Shown here: piece by piece, positions 3,844 through 16,605 of the stretch | Position numbering within the stretch: position 1 is the stretch's first letter | Layout of the letters: each line of letters begins with the position of its first letter | Source of the DNA: Leptospiraceae bacterium | GTDB taxonomy: Bacteria > Spirochaetota > Leptospiria > Leptospirales > Leptospiraceae | Assembly: GCA_015075105.1 (NCBI GenBank) | Contig: JABTUZ010000001.1 | Location: 879,001-943,000, forward strand | DNA length: 64,000 bases | Direction of reading: 5' to 3' | The notes under the pieces: generated by a model | Seen by the model: only the letters and a program-made list of their open reading frames with translations | Told to the model about the DNA's origin: nothing | Database searches by the model: none | Made by a program: the position numbers and the translations under genes

Positions 3844-4989
3844 ATGCAATCCTATAACTCAGATTTCTCGGAAGAGAATCATTTTAGCGATTCAGAAAAT
3901 ATAGCAGAATTAGAATTAATTTTAAACGGAATTACTGAGCCTTTAGTTTTAATAGACCCAAAATTTACTATCAAAAGGGCCAATCTTTCAGCATTAGAAT
4001 TTGCAAAAGAGAATTCTAAACCAGAGGATAAATGTTACCAAATTTTATATAGAAGGGACGATGTTTGCCCTTATTGTCCGTTTGTAAAACACGATGTATC
4101 ATTGACGGAGTTTGACGATGTATTTGAGAATAAAAATATAGAAAAAACAATTGAAAGAGAAATATTTTTTAAACTGAATAAAAAGACAGAAACTCTATTT
4201 TTGTCGTTTTTCCCTCTTATAAAGAACAACAAGATTTATGCAGTAGTCGAAAAAATCAGTAATATAACCGGAATCAAAGAGAAAGACGAAGAAACGCTGA
4301 GGATGAGAAACTTGGCTTCTATAGGAGTGCTGGTTTCCGGTGTAGCCCATGAATTGAACAATCCATTGACAGGGATCGGTCTCACAGTTCAAAATCTAAT
4401 CAATAATTTAGAAAGTAACGATTTGAATTTTTTTAGAAAAAGACTTGATATGATCCAAAAAGATTTATCTAGAGCCTCAATAATCGTTTCGGATATTTTG
4501 AGTTTTGCAAAACCCGGCAAGATAACCAAGACCTATTCCAATATAGGTGAGTCCATTTATTCTGCAAAAGAAACAGTAGAGAGATTGTATCCAGTTTTGT
4601 CCAAAGAAATCCGGTGGCAGGTTGAATGTGACTCGGGACTATTTTTTTATTTTAACCCGGTGAAAATAGAGCGACTATTTTTAAATTTATTTAGAAATTC
4701 TATTCAGGCTTTTGATTACAAGAAAGGCACCATAAAAGTTGAAGTTAGGAAAACAAAAAAATGGTACCATATTTTTGTAGAAGACGATGCAGGAGGGATC
4801 TCTCCCGAAATACTCGATAAAATATTTGATCCATTTTTTACTACCAATAAATACGGGGGTGGAACTGGGCTTGGTTTGTCTATATGCTATTCAATTGTGC
4901 AAGAACACGATGGAAGTATCAGTGTAAAATCTTTTGACAAGAAAACTCGCTTTTTTATATCTTTACCAGCAGGGATTGATTTTGCATGA
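3844..4989 (+). CDS. PAS-domain sensor histidine kinase with a cysteine cluster
   Basis: Soluble two-component kinase of 381 residues with no membrane segment. A PAS-like domain (about 20-140) carries C64, C75 and C78 (final pair CPYC), resembling a PAS subgroup with a C-terminal CxxCP motif; metal, Fe-S or redox sensing is possible but not shown. The HisKA box has H169 in VAHELNNPL. The ATPase has the N-box around N285, DDAGGIS at 314-320 and the [11 protein letters not shown]2 box. It overlaps the next gene by 4 bases (ATGA), so the two are a cognate pair. Signal and targets are unknown. Confidence 0.88.
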
Positions 4990-5990
4990 CCGAGGAAAGT
5001 CTAAAAAAATTACTAATAGTAGAAGACATTCAGTCAATTCGAGAGGCGATTGTCGATCTATTATCAAGGGAATACGAGGTCTTTTCTGCCGAGAACTTTG
5101 ATGTGGCAGTCGGCATTCTTGAATCGGAAAAAATTGATTTGGTGATTACAGATATTCGGATGCCCGGTAAATCTGGTCTAGACCTAATTCATATCATCAA
5201 AGCACACTACCCGGAAACACTGTATGCTCTGATGACAGCCTACAACATCAATGACTATATTCGGTTTGCCCATGAACACGGGGTATGGAATATTATTCCT
5301 AAATATTCTTTTTTAGATATTCGTTTGATTTTAATTATGGTCAAAAAGTTATTGACTAAGAATATTTTTGGTGTAGAGAAATACTTTCCGGAAGATTTTA
5401 TTTTGGTGAATCAAAAATCGAAATCTGGATTTGAGCCTTCTCCAAAAAATGGAGTAATTTTCAAGACTATTACATCTGATAAAGAAAGAAGTACTATTTG
5501 CAACAAGATTGGAAAATTTTTACAGAACAAGGGTGCGCCGATGGTTATCCAGCAAGTTCTGGAAGAGTTGACATCCAATGCAATGATACGTGCACCGAGA
5601 GATAGCCAAGGAAATTCCAAGTATCAGTACGAATTGCCTTCTAGAGATTTGATTGTTCCTTTAAAGAAAATACAATTGTCTGAGAACGATTTTTTTGAGA
5701 TCGGATACGGCAGTTACAAAGAAACATTTATTTTAGTTGTGAAAGATCATTTTGGCTCCTTGCCCAAGGAAGAAATTTTAAGAAGATTGGATCGTCATAT
5801 TAGTGTAAATGAAGAAACCGGGTTGCCTTTGGGGCTATCTGACTCTCACGGTAGAGGGTTGTATATTTGCAGAGAGGTTTCCGATCACTTAATTTTTAAT
5901 ATCCATGAGAATGTTCAAACAGAAATTATTACACTTATTGAGGGCAATGTAACAAAATCATATAAAGCGCTTTCAATATACGAGGTATAA
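4986..5990 (+). CDS. Response regulator with receiver and HATPase-like output domain
   Basis: An N-terminal receiver (residues 1-120) has the acidic pair E13/D14, phosphoacceptor D56 in VITDIRMPG, and a late lysine in IPKYSFLD. Instead of a DNA-binding domain, the C-terminal half (about 150-320) resembles an anti-sigma/serine-kinase type HATPase: an N-box-like EELTSNAM and a G-box-like [12 protein letters not shown]. Output may therefore be protein phosphorylation or partner switching; whether it binds ATP cannot be judged here. It is translationally coupled to the kinase upstream. A STAS protein, a possible type of partner, is encoded about 4 kb away. Confidence 0.8.
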
Positions 5991-10936: not shown

Positions 10937-13786
10937 TTAAAAATTGGCTGAGAAATCGAACATGATTCTTCTCGAATCTCTTTGGTAGTCAAATGGATAA
11001 TAGTTATTCTTTATAAGAGTTTGGCAACTATTTAAAGCATTAGACACAAATACACCGAGGTGGACATTTTCATGTATCTTATATACAAATCTGGTATTTA
11101 GATTTACCCAAGGCGGTACATCTTTAGGTCGATATTGTGGGTAAGTGTTTTGATATGAAATAGGCTCTCCCGTATTCGTGTCCAAGGGACCAAATCCTGT
11201 CAATGGATCGACAGATCCCATATCGCTTGTCTTTCTATACACTAAACCTTGTCTTTCAAAAGAAAGGGAAAAGTTGAACTTAGGAAAATTTCCACTAAAT
11301 CCAAGATTGAGTCTGTGGGAAGGAGCCCAAGTTAGGTGATCTTTATTGGCTGAAATTGTATTGTCTTGAATAAATTCGTTTAGTCTTTCTATGTATGTCA
11401 TATTTGCAAAGCCAGAAAAATATTTATAAGAAAAAATTAATTCAGTTTCAAGACCGTGAGTGACTAGGGTATAAATATTGGAACTAAGGTTATTGTTTTG
11501 TAAGCTATAGGCAATTTGATTTTCAAACCTTGTACGAAAATAGTTTCCTCGTAAGTTAATGTACCTATTTAGAAAGTAGTCTATTCCGATTTCATTCGTT
11601 TGAATTACTTCCGGTTTTAATTTTCTTGGGTTAGACGCAAGCGAAAAAGTATTTGCCCCAAAAAGCTCTGTCATGGCCGGCTCTCTAAAAGCTCTACCGC
11701 TTATTAGCTTTAAATTTAAGTTTTTCGTAATAAAAAAAACTGCACCGAGTCTTGGGCTTGTTCTTCTAAAAATTCTTTTGTCATTTGTGATAAGTGGAGG
11801 ACCAACAAATTGGTCGTAAGGTTTTTCTATATAAATTCCTGTATCGCTCGAATATCTTTGGTCAATCCCTCTAAATTTTACAACTGTTTCGTCATAACGC
11901 ACACCTGCCGTAAGTTCAAGTTTATTGTAAAGTATTTTTCCGGAAACAACTTGTGCAAATGCTGCACCTTTGTTTACAGGTTTCTTTTTTATCCACTCAA
12001 ACCAAGGACCCTGTTTTTGAAATGAGTTATCGTCATAAGGTGGATAACCATTGACCGAATCACTAAGATTGATATTGCTGTAGTGTTCCTTGTCACCGTT
12101 ATAGCGAAAGTTCGTCCCTTCCACCCCACTTAATAAACTTCCTCCGTTTCCAAAAAGATAGGTCAATTGACCTCGTAAAAATATATCTTTTGCACTTGTT
12201 TTTAAATATTCAGATACTCCTCCCGGGTAAAAGTTTTCATAGGCACCATTTTCTGCATACCTTGTGTTCCAATCAATCCCTCTTTCTTGATATCGCATAA
12301 CGTATTCTTGAATCAATTTATCCGTTATATTTTTAGAATACTTGATTGTAGCAATTTGGCGAGACTCGGACATATTTTCTTTCGAGTCAGGGATTCTCCA
12401 CAGCCAACCATGCCCTGATTCATAGCTCCAGTAGCTTTTATGGAATTGGATAGATAAACCTTTTAGAACTCCTTCACCTTCTAATTTTGTAAATAAGTAA
12501 CTTGAGTTTCTTTCGTCTTTAACCGGAAATTTTTGTGGAAATCCGAAAGCATCTAATCTTCCTGAGCTGTCCGTATCCATATAGTTATTTCCTTTGGTTT
12601 TATATATGTTGTAACTCGCTATATATGAAAAAATTTTACCAGTGTTTCCCGTAAGAACATCATAAATTTGTGTTCCTGCATCACCCGAACGTATGCGGGT
12701 TTTAATCCCCCCTTTCAAATCAGATCCTGAAAAAGTGTTTATAGAAACAACTCCATTTGTAGCATTTGAGCCATAGAGCGCAGAACCGGGGCCTCTGATA
12801 ACTTCTATAGACTTAATCATATTCAAGGGAGTGATCTCCCAAGTATAGGCAGTACCGTATAGATTATCATTAAATTGGACTCCATCCATCAAAGTTAAAA
12901 TATGGTTGTTGTTCCAGCCTTCAAAAATTCCACGCCCTGTGACAGTTCTTCTGTCATAGTCTTGCGAAGGAGCGAAACCCGGGAGTTGATACAAAATATC
13001 GTTAAGGCTAACTCTTCCGTAGTTACGAATTTCTTCTTCTGTTATTACGGATATAATATTGGGCGCTTCGCTTGCTTTTTTTTCCGTCTTAGTAGAAGAG
13101 AATGTGACCTGGCTTTGCAAAAAAGAAAACACTTGTTTTGCTGCTTCTTCTTCGGCTTCTTTTCCCGAAGAAATCGGGAATTTTTTATTCCGGCTGATTT
13201 TTGAAAATAATACAAATTCGTTTATGCTTTCTCTTTTCTCTTGTCTTTTCCAATTATTTAATAGAAGAATATTCAGTCGCTTTGAGAAATTTAGTATTCT
13301 TGTAGAATCTAATTCTTTGGATTCTGTAGAATCTAACTTGATTCCTATGGACTCTGAAATTTCATCGGTAATATTAAAGGCATCTATCATTAAACCGGTT
13401 TCAGGATTATAAATTTGAGAGTATAGTTGAAGATTTTCGTTTTCTAATTTTTTATAAAACCCATCTACTAAGAAATGACAATTTTCTTTTTTTGTAGAGG
13501 AAATTTTATCTTCTATTTTCGTTTCTATTATTTTTTTGATTTGCATTTTTTTTGAGTTCAGCACTTCAGAGATTTTAGAATAGATCTGTTCTGAAAGTTT
13601 TTTATTTTCAGTAGATTCAAAATTTGTAAATTCTGAAAGGCAAGCTATTTTGTTTGTGGGCTTCTCATCTTCTGAATATAAATCGGAGAAGTTGAATAGA
13701 ATAGCAAAAAGAACACAGGTAGTAAACAAGTTCGTTATTGGGTGCTCTTTACAAGATAAAATAAATTTCAATACGAATGCAATCAT
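10937..13786 (-). CDS. TonB-dependent receptor with N-terminal periplasmic domain (copy 1)
   Basis: A 949-residue outer-membrane receptor. After a long hydrophobic leader (about 1-37) comes an unusual 130-residue domain (about 46-178, from ACLSEFTNFES to LLLNN) with a conserved Cys pair (C49, C103), reminiscent of the small alpha/beta N-terminal domains of TolB/LpoB-type proteins. A charged linker (180-235) leads to the plug (about 240-370, with APNIISVITEEEI and EVIRGPGSALYGSNATNG). The beta-barrel ends in the aromatic terminus FSANF. The ligand is unknown. It starts within the stop of the upstream paralogue (ATGA). Fold assignment of the extra domain is my inference. Confidence 0.9.
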   Translation of the reverse strand: MIAFVLKFILSCKEHPITNLFTTCVLFAILFNFSDLYSEDEKPTNKIACLSEFTNFESTENKKLSEQIYSKISEVLNSKKMQIKKIIETKIEDKISSTKKENCHFLVDGFYKKLENENLQLYSQIYNPETGLMIDAFNITDEISESIGIKLDSTESKELDSTRILNFSKRLNILLLNNWKRQEKRESINEFVLFSKISRNKKFPISSGKEAEEEAAKQVFSFLQSQVTFSSTKTEKKASEAPNIISVITEEEIRNYGRVSLNDILYQLPGFAPSQDYDRRTVTGRGIFEGWNNNHILTLMDGVQFNDNLYGTAYTWEITPLNMIKSIEVIRGPGSALYGSNATNGVVSINTFSGSDLKGGIKTRIRSGDAGTQIYDVLTGNTGKIFSYIASYNIYKTKGNNYMDTDSSGRLDAFGFPQKFPVKDERNSSYLFTKLEGEGVLKGLSIQFHKSYWSYESGHGWLWRIPDSKENMSESRQIATIKYSKNITDKLIQEYVMRYQERGIDWNTRYAENGAYENFYPGGVSEYLKTSAKDIFLRGQLTYLFGNGGSLLSGVEGTNFRYNGDKEHYSNINLSDSVNGYPPYDDNSFQKQGPWFEWIKKKPVNKGAAFAQVVSGKILYNKLELTAGVRYDETVVKFRGIDQRYSSDTGIYIEKPYDQFVGPPLITNDKRIFRRTSPRLGAVFFITKNLNLKLISGRAFREPAMTELFGANTFSLASNPRKLKPEVIQTNEIGIDYFLNRYINLRGNYFRTRFENQIAYSLQNNNLSSNIYTLVTHGLETELIFSYKYFSGFANMTYIERLNEFIQDNTISANKDHLTWAPSHRLNLGFSGNFPKFNFSLSFERQGLVYRKTSDMGSVDPLTGFGPLDTNTGEPISYQNTYPQYRPKDVPPWVNLNTRFVYKIHENVHLGVFVSNALNSCQTLIKNNYYPFDYQRDSRRIMFDFSANF

Positions 13787-16605
13787 CAGAAATTAGCCCT
13801 CAGGTCTATAAGTACTCTTCTTGTTTCTCTTAAATAATCGGTTGGAAAGTTTCCTGTTTGGGTTAAGTACTGGGGTCTATTCAACGCGTTAGATGCAAAA
13901 ACACCTAATCGTAAATTTTCCATAAGTTTTACTTCAAATCTTAAGTTTACGTTTGTCCAAGCCTCTACACGAATTGGTCGATAAACCGGATATCTATAAG
14001 GGTCTGAGTAGGTATTTTCTGTTAGCGTACCGGTTATCGGCTCTATACTTCCAAGGTCACTTCTTTTTCTTGTCACAACACCTTGTCTTTGAACACTAAT
14101 ACTTCCCGAAAATATCTTGAAACTGCCTGTGATTCCAAAATTAGCTAAACTTGCAGGGGAGCCTGTTATCTCGCTTTGATGTTTTGATTCACTCGCTTTT
14201 AGATTGTGATCTAAGTATCGGGTAAATTTAGAATAGTTTGCAAAGGCTGAAACATTTTTGTATGTAAATAATAATTCTGATTCAAGACCTTTTGTTCCGA
14301 GTGTGTAAGCGTTTATAATCGTGTTGGAAGTATCGCTATAGTCTATCATGTTTTCGGTTCTGGTAGCAAAAGCATTGAGTCTTAGATTGATATATTTATT
14401 TGCATACCAGTCAAGTGCACCTTCATAAGTTTTTATAATTTCAGGGCTGATTTTTCTTGGGTTATTTGAGCCTCCGACATAGGTATTTACTCCAAAAAGT
14501 TCTCCAGGTGAAGGCTCTCTAAAAGCTCGCCCTGCAAGCAGTTTAAAGGTAAGTCTGTCTGTTGCAAAAAAGACTAAACCAATTCTTGGGCTTGTTTTCC
14601 GGTAAACTTTTTTTTCGTTGGTAACGAATGGAGGAGCTAAAAATCGACTTGGAACAATATTTGAAGTTTCAAGACCTGTAACCGGATCTGTATAATTGTA
14701 GGTCGGATAGCCGAGTAATCCATTGTACGGCATATCAATTCCTCTAAAGTGCATGGATGATTCGTCATATCGAGTTCCTAAAGTTATTTCTAATCTTTTT
14801 TCAAATATCTTCCCTGAGCTGAACTGCCCAAATGTTGCAATCTTTTTAATCGGACGGTCTGTTATCCAATCCATATACGGCTCTAAAGGTCTGACTATAT
14901 TTCCAGAGAAAGGCTCGCCTGTTCCGAGTAAATTCATGTCTACATTCGAGCTATGCTCCTTGTCTCCACGGTAGCTTATTTGATTTGCCTCTACACCCGC
15001 TACTATTGAACCTTTATTATCAAAATGGTAGGTGACTTGCCCTCTCCCAAAATAATTGTCTAATCTCGTGTTTAAGTTTTCCGTAACCCCCGAAGGATAA
15101 TTATTTGGGTCGCTTGGGTATAGCCTTGCATTGAACTTCCATTCTCCAGGTGAATATTTTATTACGTATTCATGAGAAAGTTTATCTGTGATATTTTTCG
15201 AGTATTTTAGAACTGCAATGTCTCTATTTTCAGACATTTGATCTTTGAAATCCGGGGTATTCTGCAACCAGCCGTTAAACGTACCGTATTTCCAGTATTG
15301 GCGATTGTATTGTAAAGAAAATCCTTTTAAATCTCCTTCCCCTTCTAATTTTAATAGAAGGGAATAGTTATTTCTTTCGTCTTTGTAGGGAAATTTTTGC
15401 AAGAAACCTAAATCATCAACTCTACCGGAATTATCGTAACCTTTTATACTGTTTCCCGTTGTATCGTAAGAATTCATGCTAACAATATATGAGATTAAAT
15501 TTGTAGTATTGCCCGTAACTATATCGTAGATTCTAGTGCCATGATCGCCCATTCTGGCACGAAGCCTGACTTCACCATTCAGGTCTTTTCCTGAATAGGT
15601 ATTTAGAGAAACAACCCCATACATTGCATTTGACCCATAAAGCGCAGACCCTGGACCTCGAATCACTTCAACAGACTTTACCATATTTAGTGGAGTTAAC
15701 TCCCAAGTGAGCGCAGAGCCATAAAAGTTTTCGTTAAATTGAACTCCATCTTGAAGTATTAAAATATGGTTATTATTCCAACCCTCGTGCATACCTCTTG
15801 CTGATACCGTTCTTCTCTCATTGATTTGAGAAGGAGAGAATCCGGGAAGCTGGTATAAAATATCGTTAATGCTATTTCTACCGTAATCTATGATTTCTTT
15901 GTCAGAGATAACTGAAATAACGTTAGGTGCCTCGTTTGTTCTTTTTTGGGTTTTTGTTGATGAAGTGGTTACTTGATTTTGCAAAAGATTGAAAACTTGT
16001 TTCGCGGCTTCCTCTTCGGCTTCCTTTCCTGATGAAATAGGGAATTTATTATTTTCACTGATTTTTGATGAAAGTACATACTCATCAATATTTTCTCTTC
16101 TTTCTATTTTTTTAGAGTTATTCAGTAATACAATTCTAAGCCTTTTTGCAAGGTTACGAACGCGCAATTCATCGGATTCTTTTGATTCTTCAGGATCCAA
16201 TTTTAACTTGCCTAATTCTGTGTACTCATCGGCAATATTGAATGCATCAATCATTAGAGAAGTTTCAGGATTATAAATTTGGCTGTACAATTGGAGGTTT
16301 TCTGAATTATTGAGTTTTTTATAATACCCATCAATGAAAAAGTAACAATTATTTTTTAGTGAGAAATGCAATTTTGACTGTATTGAGTTTTCATTTACCT
16401 TTTTAATTATAAAATTTTTTTCAGAAAAAGACTTAGTTATTATTGAATCTATGAGTTTTACAATTTCTAAGTTGGAATTCGATTCAAAGTTAGAAAAGTT
16501 AGATAAGCAAATTGTTTTTTCGTTTGTTTTATTTGGCTTTTCTTGAGAAAAAATTCCAAAAGCAGATGCAATGACAAATACAATTGAAATTATAGATTTT
16601 CGCAT
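13786..16605 (-). CDS. TonB-dependent receptor with N-terminal periplasmic domain (copy 2)
   Basis: A paralogue of the downstream receptor, 939 residues from ATG at 16603-16605; a TTG six bases earlier is less likely. The signal peptide is about 1-21. The extra N-terminal domain (ICLSNFSNFES onward) shares YSQIYNPET and MIDAFNI with copy 1. The linker contains ISSGKEAEEEAAKQVF, also nearly identical in copy 1. The plug has EVIRGPGSALYGSNAMYG and the barrel ends in DLRANF. The two genes overlap by one base and likely arose by tandem duplication, now well diverged. No TonB, ExbB or ExbD is in the window. Confidence 0.9.
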   Translation of the reverse strand: MRKSIISIVFVIASAFGIFSQEKPNKTNEKTICLSNFSNFESNSNLEIVKLIDSIITKSFSEKNFIIKKVNENSIQSKLHFSLKNNCYFFIDGYYKKLNNSENLQLYSQIYNPETSLMIDAFNIADEYTELGKLKLDPEESKESDELRVRNLAKRLRIVLLNNSKKIERRENIDEYVLSSKISENNKFPISSGKEAEEEAAKQVFNLLQNQVTTSSTKTQKRTNEAPNVISVISDKEIIDYGRNSINDILYQLPGFSPSQINERRTVSARGMHEGWNNNHILILQDGVQFNENFYGSALTWELTPLNMVKSVEVIRGPGSALYGSNAMYGVVSLNTYSGKDLNGEVRLRARMGDHGTRIYDIVTGNTTNLISYIVSMNSYDTTGNSIKGYDNSGRVDDLGFLQKFPYKDERNNYSLLLKLEGEGDLKGFSLQYNRQYWKYGTFNGWLQNTPDFKDQMSENRDIAVLKYSKNITDKLSHEYVIKYSPGEWKFNARLYPSDPNNYPSGVTENLNTRLDNYFGRGQVTYHFDNKGSIVAGVEANQISYRGDKEHSSNVDMNLLGTGEPFSGNIVRPLEPYMDWITDRPIKKIATFGQFSSGKIFEKRLEITLGTRYDESSMHFRGIDMPYNGLLGYPTYNYTDPVTGLETSNIVPSRFLAPPFVTNEKKVYRKTSPRIGLVFFATDRLTFKLLAGRAFREPSPGELFGVNTYVGGSNNPRKISPEIIKTYEGALDWYANKYINLRLNAFATRTENMIDYSDTSNTIINAYTLGTKGLESELLFTYKNVSAFANYSKFTRYLDHNLKASESKHQSEITGSPASLANFGITGSFKIFSGSISVQRQGVVTRKRSDLGSIEPITGTLTENTYSDPYRYPVYRPIRVEAWTNVNLRFEVKLMENLRLGVFASNALNRPQYLTQTGNFPTDYLRETRRVLIDLRANF

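Follow-up and report, generated by a model that had tools for sequence, protein, structure and literature searches.

A TolB/LpoB-like domain between signal peptide and plug of tandem TonB-dependent receptors in a spirochaete: a possible docking domain for a trans-envelope sensing module

To our knowledge, signalling by TonB-dependent receptors has been described through one type of domain, STN, and one kind of partner, the FecR anti-sigma factor. FecR genes are possessed by Leptospira-type spirochaetes. Periplasmic binding proteins that signal to a membrane sensor are represented by LuxP-LuxQ and NspS-MbaA. In FecA, FpvA and FoxA the STN domain is positioned between the signal peptide and the TonB box (PMC11658791, PMC11637429), and a study of L. 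interrogans reports that none of its TonB receptors is extended at the N-terminus in a way that would permit contact with anti-sigma factors (PMC8638967). The VpvABC system of Vibrio cholerae has been described as a predicted module of three components, a predicted porin (VpvA), a periplasmic binding protein (VpvB) and a diguanylate cyclase (VpvC) (PMC12456836); NspS-MbaA is also treated in PMC8967002. No description of a TonB receptor domain of the kind reported here was found in the literature searched.

Two receptor genes, A and B, lie next to each other in the window (the whole 64 kb stretch of DNA that was analysed; Table 1), which belongs to a 3.42 Mb genome of 99.97% completeness. Both ORFs are intact and full-length, and the start codon (ATG) of A shares one base with the stop codon (TGA) of B (junction ...TTTCTGATG...), as the first-pass annotation had read it. 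Both are TonB-dependent receptors, with matches to the Pfam profiles for Plug (PF07715, E = 4e-20 and 2e-19 in the two proteins) and TonB barrel (PF00593, E = 1e-25 and 3e-20). The plug begins at residue 238 of A and residue 224 of B, and the preceding ~170 residues, referred to below as the N-domain, match no family in either Pfam or NCBIfam. An extra conserved region between signal peptide and plug had been noticed in both proteins from the sequence, but its size was put at 130 residues; it consists of a ~120-residue core and a conserved helix and linker ending ENIxE...FPI. Profile scans of A and B gave no match to an STN domain or to a CarboxypepD_reg-like (SusC-like) N-terminal extension, in agreement with the initial reading that the region is neither.

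The YSQIYNPET motif reported from both copies is indeed common to them, and a degenerate codon pattern for it matches nowhere else in the 64 kb, 0.02 matches being expected. The pair of cysteines pointed out with it is real (C49/C103 in A, C33/C87 in B) but not conserved, being private to A and B and absent from close orthologues and from the paralogues C and D described below. Identity between A and B is 56% for the N-domain, 73.5% for the plug and 48% for the barrel, so that the strong divergence first ascribed to the barrel was overstated. Within orthologous clades, it is the N-domain that evolves fastest (36%, versus 75% for the plug and 54% for the barrel). Different ligands for A and B are plausible; the plugs resemble heme/hemoglobin, cobalamin and colicin-I receptors, a similarity too weak for a ligand to be named. 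Elsewhere in the window (3844-5990, + strand), a histidine kinase gene is followed by that of a response regulator, the C-terminal ~220 residues of which have no Pfam match and look ATPase-like by eye.

Table 1. Coordinates of the receptor pair with its domains and motifs in the window, and of the operons at the sister loci C and D.
Feature	Coordinates	Strand	Description
Receptor B	13786..16605	-	939 aa from ATG; signal peptide, TolB/LpoB-like N-domain (predicted), TonB box/linker, plug and barrel
Receptor A	10937..13786	-	949 aa; architecture as in receptor B
N-domain of receptor B	15994..16545	-	Core, third helix and conserved ENIDE...FPI linker; from alignments, AlphaFold2 model and fold search
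N-domain of receptor A	13157..13675	-	From alignments
YSQIYNP motif of B	16268..16287	-	Hairpin between strands 4 and 5 (predicted)
YSQIYNP motif of A	13404..13423	-	Degenerate codon pattern
C locus operon	L006:2734-9882 = C1:1647233-1654381		Receptor / ABC_sub_bind-TPR / HAMP-SpoIIE(PP2C phosphatase)-TPR sensor
D locus operon	L007:1282-7395 = C1:783281-789394		Receptor / ABC_sub_bind-TPR / HAMP-class III (adenylate) cyclase sensor

The N-domain of receptor B was modelled with AlphaFold2 (window positions 15997-16551) from an alignment of 19 homologues, giving a mean pLDDT of 87.6 and a pTM of 0.82. A prediction from the single sequence reached a pLDDT of 39 and was discarded. The modelled domain is a compact alpha/beta fold (b-a-b-a-b-b-b-a) with a helical linker after it; the conserved YxQIYNPETGxxIDA makes up the hairpin that joins strands 4 and 5. 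The best Foldseek matches in the PDB were FlgT (4.3e-6), HpaA, PelC/PelBC (4.1e-5) and the N-domain of TolB (7.3e-5), followed more weakly by LpoB (1.7e-3) and GNA1162 (3.2e-3); neither an STN nor a secretin domain is among the matches listed. TM-scores were moderate (0.35-0.6), which indicates kinship at the level of the fold, not close homology. The model supports placing the N-domain in the TolB-N/LpoB/PelC/FlgT fold group, as the first-pass annotation had proposed in suggesting a small TolB/LpoB-like alpha/beta domain, and speaks against a disordered linker or an STN domain. The expected match to TolB-N, LpoB and FlgO holds for the predicted fold but does not extend to sequence profiles: the matches from a Pfam/NCBIfam scan of 47 domain copies were all scattered and weak and were taken as chance, and none of these three families reached its curated Pfam cut-off (best match FlgO, E = 0.053, in 1 of the 47 copies).

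The receptors carrying the N-domain are restricted to the window's class. A profile search of spirochaete genomes, proposed at the outset as a check, found the domain in 23 genomes of this class on about 60 receptors (47-copy profile), and among 393 genomes of the phylum the same profile found no receptor with it outside the class. The few matches from outside are weak (E = 1e-5 to 1e-3), and those that were read are smaller proteins. A scan of genome contigs with a 10-row alignment returned 12 loci, the window's own record not among them, all of them titled as Leptospirales, Leptospiraceae or 'Spirochaetaceae' MAGs. In the window's genome, the domain is found on four receptors (A, B, C at L006 and D at L007) and four further plug receptors are without it. 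On a tree of plug and barrel sequences, the N-domain is spread over several very deep receptor clades, and it is therefore not tied to one transporter type. One receptor copy (G026:C77, L059:1228-4366) is interrupted by a TAA stop codon after the domain and ahead of the plug and is an apparent pseudogene or assembly error. In other spirochaetes (L116, L118, L119, L120), a TolB/FlgO-like N-terminal domain is followed by a probable small beta-barrel with no TonB plug; such plug-less proteins from outside the class match FlgO at E = 0.02 and OMP_b-brl at E = 0.002.

Many receptors with the N-domain are linked to genes for a TPR-tailed ABC_sub_bind protein and a Cache-like/HAMP sensor. Next to C and next to D is the gene of a periplasmic, TPR-tailed ABC_sub_bind protein (PF04392); a HAMP-SpoIIE(PP2C)-TPR sensor gene is located upstream of the binding-protein gene at C, and a HAMP-class III cyclase gene downstream of D. 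The input regions of the two sensors share 47% identity. In the window's genome, PF04392 proteins and full-length matches to this input region number just two each, all at loci C and D. Across the class, the output domains are swapped behind similar input (SpoIIE, Guanylate_cyc or HisKA+HATPase). The layout of receptor, binding protein and HAMP sensor recurs at about 20 other loci, but not at A and B. For the receptors listed from the same genomes, PF04392 is found within 6 kb of 25 of the 57 with the domain versus 1 of the 49 without it (Fisher p = 1.5e-7), and roughly half of all domain-bearing receptors have no adjacent ABC_sub_bind gene.

A and B are in this latter group. Their flanking genes encode a comF-like phosphoribosyltransferase (assigned by eye) and a Na/H exchanger, and no sensor or ABC_sub_bind gene adjoins them. 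Their closest relatives (L041, L069, L073, L076, L083) keep the N-domain and likewise stand alone, with no neighbour genes common to this orthologue clade. Their nearest relative without the domain (L134) is located in a complete module. Two other arrangements were observed in the class. At L131:7528-9531(-), a single protein of 668 aa combines an ABC_sub_bind domain with a class III cyclase; next to its gene are another ABC_sub_bind gene and one for a symporter that has a cyclic-nucleotide-binding domain. At five loci (L048, L072, L075, L077, L079), tandem domain-bearing receptors from two barrel clades are found directly beside a HAMP-SpoIIE sensor, with an ABC_sub_bind gene 12-16 kb away where the contigs suffice.

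The form of the binding protein follows the presence of the N-domain. Its TPR tail is 205-225 aa long beside 23 of 23 domain-bearing receptors, versus a tail of 10-151 aa beside 7 of 7 domain-less ones, and two genomes (G026 and G039) hold both states, each correctly paired. Placed on the tree, tail length and domain give only three independent contrasts with support, and all three agree (p = 0.25). Long-tailed PF04392 proteins are present in 22 of the 23 genomes with the N-domain, the exception having a completeness of 75%. None was found in the 25 genomes lacking the domain, among which a match in G047 is truncated at the end of its contig. The module also occurs without the N-domain, mainly in one genus (L123-L127). 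Moreover, a mirror-tree analysis using partial correlations, with RpoB distance controlled, relates the N-domain to the ABC_sub_bind core (r = 0.56, p = 0.0005) and to the TPR tail (0.53), whereas plug and barrel give 0.07-0.22 against the binding protein, which is not significant. With near-duplicates removed, the N-domain retains 0.45 with the core (p = 0.0055) and 0.38 with the tail (p = 0.013), and plug and barrel fall to 0 or below. The N-domain thus changes with a separate binding protein more than with the barrel to which it is fused. Inside single genomes (13 pairs) the mirror-tree is not significant. The tail adds no signal beyond the core, and to prefer it over the core as the docking site would be a guess.

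Adjacency, pairing of tail lengths and the mirror-tree would fit equally well if the N-domain recruited ABC_sub_bind, which is a substrate-binding family, to receive the imported ligand, with signalling secondary or absent. We regard such a transport hand-off as unlikely, given that the adjacent genes encode sensors whose outputs are signalling domains, that one ABC_sub_bind protein is fused to a cyclase and that no ABC permease or ATPase was present in the ten flanking genes scanned. The N-domain might instead have a structural or energetic role, binding another envelope protein (Tol-Pal, peptidoglycan machinery or TonB) or oligomerising under the barrel. The fold family of LpoB, PelC and TolB does such things, many members (A and B included) have no module nearby, and in other spirochaetes small barrels lacking a plug carry domains of a similar kind; however, ABC_sub_bind is strongly enriched near receptors with the domain and the two agree in presence and absence across genomes, which makes this an improbable account of the domain. 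FecA-like cell-surface signalling through a divergent signalling domain and a FecR anti-sigma factor was rejected as the main reading and is very improbable: the N-domain occupies the STN position and the window's genome has 11 FecR-domain genes, but none of the 11 adjoins receptors A, B, C or D, fold and profiles are not those of STN, and the L. interrogans survey found no receptor extension of the anti-sigma type (PMC8638967).

Since sister receptors with the N-domain have the genes of a binding protein and an inner-membrane signalling enzyme as neighbours, the domain probably reports on what its receptor has bound outside the cell. We lean, by a little, towards a docking domain, distinct from STN, that serves a VpvABC-like module for sensing across the envelope and would act for A and B through shared partners. 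The N-domain would dock the receptor onto the TPR-tailed ABC_sub_bind protein, and ligand binding or TonB-driven movement of the plug would alter the contact between the two. The binding protein would then relay this state to the HAMP sensor, which would switch a cytoplasmic phosphatase, cyclase or kinase. For A and B, the partner may be supplied in trans by one of the genome's only two binding-protein/sensor pairs, those of C and D. Coupling to a periplasmic partner, one of the functions put forward in the first-pass annotation, is strengthened, short of proof, by gene neighbourhoods, tail-length covariation and the mirror-tree in the sister receptors; it bears indirectly on A and B, which have no such gene adjoining them. 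More tentatively, and with somewhat less than even confidence, these receptors could represent a second, STN-independent class of TonB-dependent transducer, with a TolB-fold domain, a TPR-tailed binding protein and interchangeable outputs (adenylate cyclase, PP2C phosphatase or histidine kinase), in which barrels are exchanged beneath a co-evolving domain and receptors of the A/B type feed shared sensors in trans. If true, a docking domain coupled in this way to cyclases and phosphatases would offer these spirochaetes a possible route from external nutrients to cAMP or phosphatase signals. The N-domain and the ABC_sub_bind-TPR protein form a defined candidate pair of domain and partner, accessible to simple binding assays.

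The receptors described here resemble the transducers FecA, FpvA and FoxA in having a folded periplasmic domain ahead of the TonB box and a genetic link to an inner-membrane regulator. They differ in that a predicted TolB-N/LpoB-like fold, a binding protein and HAMP enzymes are found in place of STN and an anti-sigma/sigma pair. TolB-N, LpoB, PelC, FlgT and GNA1162 share the predicted fold and are its matches in the PDB, but they are separate periplasmic proteins or lipoproteins, whereas the N-domain forms part of a TonB receptor and has no Pfam match at threshold. LuxP-LuxQ and NspS-MbaA provide a precedent for a binding protein that acts on a membrane sensor and not on a transporter, although they are without an outer-membrane receptor carrying a docking domain. 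Unlike VpvABC, the systems described here have a TonB receptor that carries a TolB-like domain, a TPR tail on the binding protein and SpoIIE (PP2C phosphatase), Guanylate_cyc (class III cyclase) or HisKA/HATPase in place of GGDEF as output, and A and B themselves are outside such an operon. Nevertheless, it is VpvABC, a module spanning outer membrane, periplasm and inner membrane with an enzyme as its output, that most closely matches the layout of C, D and many of their relatives.
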